NCBI GenBank assembly: GCA_003138365.1
Contig: PLFY01000133.1
Coordinates: forward strand, 15,294 to 79,293
DNA length: 64,000 nucleotides
Reading direction: 5' to 3'
Source of the DNA: Acidobacteriaceae bacterium
GTDB lineage: Bacteria > Acidobacteriota > Terriglobia > Terriglobales > Acidobacteriaceae
The first letter of the stretch is position 1. Each line of letters begins with the position of its first letter. Of the stretch, positions 12,193 through 15,181 are shown piece after piece. Made by a program: the position numbers and the translations under genes. Below the pieces are notes generated by a model. The model ran no database searches, had not been told where the DNA came from, and saw only the letters and a program-made list of their open reading frames with translations.

Positions 12193-13638
12193 CTAGCTCA
12201 GTCCCGACATGACTAACATGCGGGGCTCGGTCATCTCCTGGATGGCGGAGCGGATGCCTTCGCGGCCCAGGCCGGAGTCCTTGATGCCGCCGTAGGGCAT
12301 TGGATCGAGTCGCCAGCTTGGGGTGTCACCGACGATCAGCGTGCCCACTTCGAGTTCGCGGTAGGCGGTGAGGATGCGGCCGGCGTCGCGGGTGAGCAGG
12401 CCGGCCTGGAGGCCATAGCGCGAGTGATTCACGTCGGCCAGGGCCTGCTCGAAGTCGTCGTAGGGCTCGATGGCCACAACAGGACCGAAGACCTCTTCGT
12501 CGCGCACCTTCATGCCCGGCTTGGTTCCGGTAAGGATGACGGGAGTGACGACGGAGCCGTGGCGCTCGCCGCCGGCTACCAGCTTGGCGCCGCCGTCGAC
12601 GGCTTCCTTGACCCAGGCCTCGACGCGTTCGGCTTCGCCAATCCTGATCAGCGGGCCCACTTCAGTGGCTTCATCCGAGGGGTCCCCGGCTACCATCTTG
12701 GCGGTGGTCTCGACAACCTTCCACAAGAACGTCTGGAAGATTTTGCGCTCGACAAAGACGCGCTGGACGCTGATGCACGATTGGCCGGCGAAGCCAAAGG
12801 CTGCGTGCGCGGTGCGTTCGGCTGCCTCGTCGAGGTCGAGCCAATCGCTGTGGACGATGAGCGCGGCATTGCCGCCGAGTTCGAGCAGCACACGCTTGCG
12901 CCCGGAGTGGGCTTTGAGTTCCCACCCCACTTTGGCCGAGCCGGTAAAGCTGACCAGCTTGATGCGATCTTCCTTTTCAGCAAGCCATGCGGCGTCGATA
13001 TTGCTGAGGGGCAGAACGGCCAGCGCTTCGCCGGGCCAACCGGCTTTGAGAATCACTTCGCCCAGAGCCAGCGCGGTAAACGGAGTTTGCGGGGCGGGCT
13101 TGAGAATCAGCGGACATCCGGCAGCAAGCGCGGGCGCCACTTTGTGGGCGACAAGGTTCAAAGGAAAATTGAACGGCGTAATCGCCAGGACCGGGCCGAC
13201 CGGGAAGCGCTGCACCAGCCCCCAGCGGCCCTCGTTGCCCTCGGTCAGGTCAAGGGGAAGGCTTTCGCCTCCGAGCCGGGCGGCTTCTTCGGCAGCGGTC
13301 TTGAAGGTGAGCACGGCGCGGTCGACTTCACCGCGAGCCAGGCGGACGGGTTTGCCGGCTTCAGCGACGATGAGTTGAGCGAAGCGCTCCTTCTGCTCGA
13401 TGAGCGCGGCGGCTACGTCTTCGAGAATCTCGCGGCGTTTCCATCGGGGCAGGGCGCGAGTGCGGCGCAGGCTGGCCATGGCGTGGTTCACGGCCTGGCG
13501 CGCGTCGGCGCGGGTGGCCACAGTCACACGGCCCACCAGACCCTGATCCCACGGTGAACGCACTTCGAGCGTTTCGCCTTCGATCCACTCTTTGCCGCAC
13601 AGCAGAAATCCCGTTTGCGTTCCCGGCCGCATCTTCAT
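12193..13638 (-). CDS. NAD(P)-dependent aldehyde dehydrogenase
   Basis: 481 residues, full length for the ALDH superfamily. Active-site residues are in place: catalytic C288 (FAGQSCIS), general base E253 (LLELGGN) and N157 (TPFNFPLN). FTGSAKVGWELK near 231 is the cofactor-loop motif. Oxidises an aldehyde to the acid in the cytosol. The sequence is closest in feel to the lactaldehyde / non-phosphorylating glyceraldehyde-3-phosphate dehydrogenase-like group; the substrate is not determined. The ATG (13638) overlaps the stop of the ClpP-like gene by four bases, so the two are co-translated, an unexpected pairing. Confidence 0.93.
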   Translation of the reverse strand: MKMRPGTQTGFLLCGKEWIEGETLEVRSPWDQGLVGRVTVATRADARQAVNHAMASLRRTRALPRWKRREILEDVAAALIEQKERFAQLIVAEAGKPVRLARGEVDRAVLTFKTAAEEAARLGGESLPLDLTEGNEGRWGLVQRFPVGPVLAITPFNFPLNLVAHKVAPALAAGCPLILKPAPQTPFTALALGEVILKAGWPGEALAVLPLSNIDAAWLAEKEDRIKLVSFTGSAKVGWELKAHSGRKRVLLELGGNAALIVHSDWLDLDEAAERTAHAAFGFAGQSCISVQRVFVERKIFQTFLWKVVETTAKMVAGDPSDEATEVGPLIRIGEAERVEAWVKEAVDGGAKLVAGGERHGSVVTPVILTGTKPGMKVRDEEVFGPVVAIEPYDDFEQALADVNHSRYGLQAGLLTRDAGRILTAYRELEVGTLIVGDTPSWRLDPMPYGGIKDSGLGREGIRSAIQEMTEPRMLVMSGLS

Positions 13639-14849
13639 GAATGAGCAACTCCTTCTTGTTCGGAGGGTATGTCGGGTGCGTTCTCAACCAGAATACGCGG
13701 GGATCGCAGATCGAGGCCGATGACTTCGTCGATGAGGCCGAGCCAATAAGCTTCTGTCGCGGTCATGGGGAAATCGCCGGATTGAAGCCGGCGGCAGAAG
13801 GATACGAACAAGAACCAAATTGAGAAGCACATCGTATCCATGTACTGAAAAACAGCCTTCCACCAATCCTGTTTTGACGAAAAACCGGTTTTGCCCGTTT
13901 TTAAGATTGCTGTGTCACGCAAAGGATCATTGAAGAAATCCTCGAGCCAGCGGTTTTTCAATTTCGCAATCATCTCGCGATGATGATATTCGAAAAAATC
14001 GCAAAGCAGAGAATACTTGACTTCCATGGCGGCGAACGATGGATACATGGAAACATTCGTAAGTGCATCGCCCAGAATTGCGGTCTTAACCGATGCTTTC
14101 CTCTTCATTTCATCGGATAATCTCAGAGCATCCATCAAATCCGTCAAATTCGAATTCTTGGCGAACGAAGCAACGTCATTTGCGGTTTGGCCTGCAATGA
14201 CAAGTTGCTCCAGGATTGCATGGTTGACATAGCCAAGATTGAGAATTGAAATCATGGTTTCGGCAACACTCTTTGCGGTCAATGAGTCTTCGTAACCAAA
14301 TAACCCCGGCCCCCCCTTCTCAACTCCAAATCTATCGAGATTCAGCCAAAACGTCGAAAAGCGGAACATAAACCGGTCTATACAGTTTCGCGCCAGAGCG
14401 ATCGCAAATCCTTCATCTTGCCCGGCCATATCCTTGGCGAAACTGGCTGCGACATCTTTGGTGAGAGCCGTGGGCTGATAGATGATATGGCGTGTACCAT
14501 GACAGAGAATCCTACTATAGGGGTATGCGAGAGCATAATCGCCAGCCATCAGGATGTCTGAGGCTGCACTCGATGCCTCGCCGAGTGCCACCGTAATCAG
14601 GCGGCACGGCTCGGAGCGATCTTGGTCGCTGGCACGCAGAGCATCCAGAAGCAGCCTAGCGGATTCTGTGTCGCCTCCGGGGCTGTCGATGTACACGGTA
14701 ATTGGCTCGCGTGAAGTGGTTTGGAGCCTGACTATCTCAGGAAGAAGGCGGGAGACAAGAGTGTCGTCGATGATCCCGGAGATGGTGACCGATCGATTGT
14801 GGTTTGGCCTATACTTCGGATCACGCCGGATCGGTTCCTGTCCTGACAT
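13635..14849 (-). CDS. ClpP-like serine protease with large internal insertion
   Basis: 404 residues. The N-terminal third matches the ClpP fold: VYIDSPGGDTESARLL (52-67), catalytic Ser S94 in GEASSAAS, catalytic His H117 in YSRILCHG. The remaining ClpP signature appears only near the end, as GDFPMTATEAYWLGLIDEVIG, giving catalytic Asp D359. In ordinary ClpP (about 200 residues) His and Asp are about 50 residues apart; here 242, so roughly 190 residues are inserted, with no recognisable domain (helical, aromatic-rich; a hydrophobic patch near 340-352). The insertion region is more AT-rich than the neighbours, suggesting transfer. Start: ATG at 14849; the reading frame is open upstream but overlaps the small gene. 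The 3' end overlaps the aldehyde dehydrogenase gene. Confidence 0.8.
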   Translation of the reverse strand: MSGQEPIRRDPKYRPNHNRSVTISGIIDDTLVSRLLPEIVRLQTTSREPITVYIDSPGGDTESARLLLDALRASDQDRSEPCRLITVALGEASSAASDILMAGDYALAYPYSRILCHGTRHIIYQPTALTKDVAASFAKDMAGQDEGFAIALARNCIDRFMFRFSTFWLNLDRFGVEKGGPGLFGYEDSLTAKSVAETMISILNLGYVNHAILEQLVIAGQTANDVASFAKNSNLTDLMDALRLSDEMKRKASVKTAILGDALTNVSMYPSFAAMEVKYSLLCDFFEYHHREMIAKLKNRWLEDFFNDPLRDTAILKTGKTGFSSKQDWWKAVFQYMDTMCFSIWFLFVSFCRRLQSGDFPMTATEAYWLGLIDEVIGLDLRSPRILVENAPDIPSEQEGVAHS

Positions 14850-15039
14850 CCTGGCCTTCCGTGTGGGAGGTGCTAGGCTTACTCGCCTTCGCCGCCTCCT
14901 CCCGCTTGCGCGCATCGTCGTAGAAGCGATCCCAGTCTGTGGAACCGTCCTCTTTGCGATAGACGATACGGATGCGGCGTAGCGCGTCGTCGAACTCGCG
15001 GTCCGCTTCTGTTTCACCATATGGCCTGGCAATGGGCAT
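14821..15039 (-). CDS. Small hypothetical protein upstream of ClpP-like gene
   Basis: A 72-residue acidic/charged protein (MPIARPYGETEADREF..., then DWDRFYDDARKREEAAK). A good ribosome binding site (GGAGGT, complement of 15044-15049) precedes the ATG at 15039, and the stop lies 29 bases inside the ClpP-like gene, so the two are coupled. I do not recognise a family. Possible roles are substrate, adaptor or regulator of the protease; these are guesses from position only. Confidence 0.6.
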   Translation of the reverse strand: MPIARPYGETEADREFDDALRRIRIVYRKEDGSTDWDRFYDDARKREEAAKASKPSTSHTEGQDVRTGTDPA

Positions 15040-15181
15040 GCGCACCTCCGTTTGTTGAGTGTAACACCGCACCAATATCGCTTGAATATCGACCCAAGGT
15101 AACGAAGGTCAATAGGAGTCAATAGGCGCCAATTCTAGCAGGCGATCAAATGGGGAATCTGATACGGTACACTGTTCGCCT

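Follow-up and report, generated by a model that had tools for sequence, protein, structure and literature searches.

A ClpP-type serine protease family with a predicted helical domain at the handle and a dedicated small partner protein

In the window, by which we mean the whole stretch of 64,000 nucleotides that was analysed, positions 13635-15039 comprise two minus-strand genes, one encoding a ClpP-like serine protease and the other a protein of 72 amino acids. The features of the locus are as follows.

13635..14849, minus strand: ClpP-like serine protease with a helical insertion, 404 aa, ATG start (family of 25 complete members)
14487..14801, minus strand: N-terminal half with the ClpP fold, residues 17-121, which includes the YIDSPGG strand, S94 and H117 (Pfam PF00574 match; pLDDT about 91-98 over residues 11-110)
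13776..14486, minus strand: insertion, or rebuilt handle, residues 122-358, predicted all-helical (family alignment; AF2 model of the homologous insert at locus L048)
13773..13775, minus strand: D359, at the site of the third catalytic residue, where all members have Asp or Glu (acidic in 25 of 25; gapless alignment with the ClpP catalytic Asp)
14821..15039, minus strand: small partner protein, 72 aa (leave-one-out HMM, E=0.023; family profile search)
13639..15164, no strand assigned: inserted cassette, approximate extent, flanked by the genes for the aldehyde dehydrogenase and the DNA-glycosylase (site empty in three congeners)

The upstream 72-aa gene overlaps the protease start by 29 bp, and the protease stop overlaps the start of the downstream aldehyde dehydrogenase gene in an ATGA. 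Canonical ClpP is encoded separately in the host genome, and no phage genes were seen adjoining the protease in the window.

Profile and structural comparisons placed the N-terminal half of the window protease in the ClpP fold, with a Pfam CLP_protease score of 58.9 bits (cut-off 20.2) confined to residues 17-121 and a Foldseek match at E 4.9e-9. The NCBIfam models for ClpP equivalogs gave no full-length match; the best reached 54 bits against a cut-off of 228 and covered the ClpP half only, while other family members scored 42-48 bits. The sequence-only reading had described an intact triad, S94-H117-D359, with a His-Asp spacing of 242, and the alignment bears this out: all three residues are present, D359 aligns with the Asp of ClpP, and the spacing exceeds the 50 residues of four canonical ClpPs by 192. 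The protease shares with ClpP (PF00574, peptidase family S14) the fold of its N-terminal half, the Ser and His, a YIxSPGG strand and a C-terminal acid segment. It differs in about 190 extra residues at the handle, in the Glu that most members carry for Asp, and, for the window protease, in an apparently shorter N-terminus, the lack of an equivalog score above cut-off and the absence of an adjoining AAA+ ATPase gene.

None of the 25 complete members departs from Ser94 or His117; the third position is Glu in 16 and Asp in nine, and the His-acid spacing ranges from 213 to 242. The predicted third catalytic residue is therefore Asp in the window protease and Glu in most of the family. The replacement of Asp by Glu in 16 of 25 members, together with the long branch of the window copy, could suit a ClpP-like protein that has lost catalysis and serves for scaffolding or binding; we consider this improbable, as Ser and His never vary and the third position is always acidic despite strong divergence. 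Such constancy in strongly diverged proteins points, at the level of sequence, to selection on catalysis.

The family was opened by a search with the C-terminal 284 amino acids in class and phylum samples and was then extended with family alignments, whose searches covered genome contigs, viral contigs, the order and a Verrucomicrobial class. About 32 distinct loci were obtained, mostly from Acidobacteriota and Verrucomicrobiota, with further members in Omnitrophota and on a phage contig. The cassette has a patchy distribution in bacteria of soil and water and is also present in some phages. It is infrequent, occurring in 9 of 399 genomes of the class, 5 of 397 of the order and 8 of 335 of a Verrucomicrobial class. 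Scans for peptide patterns of the window protein alone revealed no close relatives in genome or viral contigs, and tblastn with the window protein or a central member found none in plasmids or phages. Three candidates were discarded, a weak match that proved to be an MFS transporter (L036) and two loci with frames full of stops (L037 and L038). Four retained protease copies carry a stop or frameshift (L056, L057, L058 and L065), some of which may be low-coverage assembly errors.

In the tree, a fully supported split divides the family from ClpP; the window protein forms a long branch as the most divergent member, at most 33% identical to any other. Another 24 complete homologues, mostly just 25-33% identical to the window protease where measured, have the same architecture, and this recurrence lies far beyond chance; we regard the two-gene architecture as very probably correct. 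We found no description of the protease family in the openly accessible literature. Taken together with the insert and partner results below, these data define an unnamed ClpP-type protease family that combines an uncharacterised domain, predicted to be helical, with a small partner of its own.

The family alignment showed that the insertion is homologous in all members. In the AlphaFold2 model of the window protein, a confident ClpP core is joined to an all-helical insert, in which a 48-residue helix opens in the position of the handle and a 32-residue helix returns to the catalytic acid, with stretches of low model confidence in the insert. Structure prediction, the check proposed in the sequence-only reading, was more favourable for the homologous insert of the central member (L048), which, folded alone with the family alignment, gave a confident all-helical domain (mean pLDDT 84.6, pTM 0.79). 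The fold of this insert had no match in the PDB (best E 1.2) or among the predicted viral structures of BFVD (best E 0.45), and the insert profile had none among PDB sequences, in agreement with the suggestion that the insertion does not resemble a known domain. The two rings of ordinary ClpP are stacked through the handle, whose helix holds the triad in position (PMC12383707); the insert thus sits at a point that controls activity, and we infer that it would abolish ring stacking.

The insertion had also been described as AT-richer than its surroundings, and its GC content is indeed 41-47% against about 62% in the flanks. On average, GC in the window is 0.55 for the core, 0.46 for the insert and 0.62 for the flanks, and since the whole protease gene is AT-richer than its flanks, as it is in most of 18 members compared, the low value of the insert is no evidence of separate acquisition. 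In most of these 18 members the GC deficit of the insert lies at codon positions 1-2 and not at position 3, which reflects amino-acid content. The idea that an AT-rich insert was acquired separately was dropped, as no systematic GC drop occurs at third codon positions.

Short ORFs, overlapping or adjacent, precede most protease members and have in common a motif close to Y-G-x-D-x-x-x-F or Y-x-G-D-x-x-x-F. A small-partner HMM was trained on ten of these ORFs and run on 17,030 ORFs from all loci; when each was left out in turn, the training partners were recovered at E 4.8e-14 to 5.1e-5 and the window partner at 0.023, against 0.33 for the best unrelated match. The HMM also matched the ORF preceding the protease at four further loci (L067, L058, L062 and L075), above anything unrelated. 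In a genome search, a family profile that includes the window partner recovered it at E=1.9e-17, and the small-partner profile yielded seven confident matches in 394 genomes, all of them adjoining the protease; an eighth match (E 0.004) was judged to be probably spurious. One of the seven, in genome G197, revealed at the end of a contig a family member that had escaped the earlier searches. Because the profile search found only neighbours of the protease, including a new member, the 72-aa protein is a real and conserved partner. The coupling to an upstream 72-residue protein noticed in the sequence-only reading was thus confirmed, both by the gene overlap and by the conservation of the partner beside the protease.

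The small partner occurs at about 22 of the 32 loci, and none was recognisable at L042, L061, L063, L114, L119 and L120. At two loci from one genus (L045:6746-7039 and L046:6989-7279), the protease is immediately preceded by a different small ORF (IGQRILAA...), which lies next to a tyrosine recombinase.

The same reading had proposed that the partner, the protease and the aldehyde dehydrogenase act together as a three-gene unit, and the ATGA overlap would fit such an arrangement. Three congeners (G001, G002 and G004), in contrast, carry the dehydrogenase in the same place without the protease, with the dehydrogenase and glycosylase genes 50-110 bp apart and no cassette between them. Homology between the window and these congeners ends at 13639-13641 and returns at 15162-15165. 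These empty sites imply that the cassette was inserted in the window genome or lost in the others, and that the ATGA overlap is a by-product of its position. In addition, the dehydrogenase was seen beside no other member in the neighbour clusterings and listings. The empty sites count strongly against the three-gene unit, to which we give a negligible chance; of the proposed downstream coupling, the overlap stands, as an accident of the cassette site, and the functional unit does not. The broader proposal of an uncharacterised protease system gained from the insert without known family or fold, from an architecture found across phyla and from the conserved partner, with the correction that the unit comprises two genes instead of three.

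Several contexts bear on mobility. A phage integrase adjoins the cassette at L045 and another lies about 2.3 kb downstream of it at L062, and at L046 the same place is taken by an L045 homologue. On the L067 contig, terminase, portal and capsid genes were read by eye, with about 5.5 kb between the end of the protease gene and the terminase gene that follows. No target-site duplication, terminal inverted repeats or transposon ends were recognised at the cassette. We read the cassette as a mobile two-gene module.

The phage contexts raise the question of whether the family is a domesticated phage head-maturation protease. ClpP-like proteases of this type (PHROG 94 and others; NF045542) share the ClpP fold and phage occurrence with the family and were its best PHROG matches (8.2e-10); moreover, one member lies on the contig with apparent terminase, portal and capsid genes, and two stand beside integrases and phage-like genes. 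The PHROG matches, however, span the ClpP half only, the NF045542 score falls well below the NCBIfam cut-off (28.4 against 120 bits), the protease gene of L067 lies outside the portal-capsid block, and the partner has no PHROG match, all of which makes this origin decidedly improbable.

Turning to the neighbouring genes, profile searches identified clear defence genes within three genes of the protease at 6 of 21 loci, namely a SMODS synthetase (L040), Swt1-HEPN and DUF499 (L048), type I restriction (L049), type III restriction (L057), AbiEii (L061) and DUF1016 (L063). Such genes were found in at most 2 of 14 control regions, which were drawn from some of the same genomes, and this excess is suggestive, the by-locus difference not being significant. 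PADLOC family counts (286 vs 8) were inflated by redundant restriction models and were unused as a statistic, and no PADLOC family matched at E<=1. Neither the flanks in the window nor the seven additional Verrucomicrobial loci were seen to hold defence genes. The layout itself is toxin-antitoxin-like, with a small upstream gene that overlaps or abuts a larger one in a conserved pair, albeit not recognisable at every locus. As the by-locus difference is not significant, we hold a defence or toxin-antitoxin role at a probability of roughly 0.35.

Most loci, the window included, lie among ordinary metabolic genes, and this setting would fit an accessory, non-defensive cytoplasmic ClpP-fold peptidase whose small protein serves as adaptor or chaperone and which spread horizontally for a housekeeping or stress benefit. 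The canonical ClpP of the host makes an extra, specialised protease plausible. A rare and scattered distribution, empty sites in congeners, phage- or prophage-like contexts and decayed copies would, in contrast, be unusual for a housekeeping enzyme. This explanation is a credible, if tentative, alternative to a defence role.

For the mobile module with a toxin-antitoxin-like or abortive-infection role, which the sparse and insertion-prone distribution suggests, we propose the following mechanism. The large gene would encode a ClpP-fold serine protease that keeps a Ser-His-Asp/Glu triad and whose handle carries, or has been replaced by, the helical domain of about 190 residues. The small gene, which is read first and overlaps the protease start, would allow the partner to be made in step with the protease. 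The partner would most likely bind the protease, with the helical insert as one possible site, and would either hold it inactive or direct its substrates. The module would presumably work without a Clp ATPase and act against phage or other mobile DNA. In its most specific form, in which a rebuilt-handle ClpP-fold protease, released from a dedicated small inhibitor, is the effector of a new class of mobile defence or toxin-antitoxin systems that need no ATPase, the proposal is doubtful.

ClpP is among the best-studied proteases. A triad-keeping family with a new helical handle domain and its own small partner would, if the proposal is true, represent another way of switching the ClpP fold on and off, and would supply a specific candidate for an immune or toxin system of bacteria that works through a protease. 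The restraint of a ClpP-superfamily protease by a partner has a precedent in Bacillus subtilis, where SppI, a demonstrated inhibitor of SppA, is encoded with this serine protease in one operon (PMC7568657). SppA and SppI differ from the pair described here in being membrane proteins, and the SppA model TIGR00706 gave 14 vs 155 bits on the window protease. A further likeness is the chloroplast ClpP1 of Chlamydomonas, a ClpP with a large translated insertion of 30 kDa; that insertion is confined to Chlorophyceae, is partly cleaved out and is built into a normal ClpP core (PMC8643629).

Minor observations concern the surroundings of the cassette. What is apparently the same phage region, with the cassette, occurs in two separate viral contigs (L067 and L068), and at three loci (L114:6987-7808, L115:9452-10276 and L135:6575-7519) what read by eye as genes for IS1-type transposases stand upstream of the cassette in divergent orientation. 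In the congener G018 (L138:3702-5825), the same dehydrogenase-glycosylase interval is filled by another gene, apparently for a glycosidase when read by eye, and the site may be an insertion hotspot. At the downstream edge in the window (13636-13660), the final protease codons may be old host DNA that includes the ribosome-binding site of the dehydrogenase, and a GGAG-like motif in this segment is common to the congener G004.
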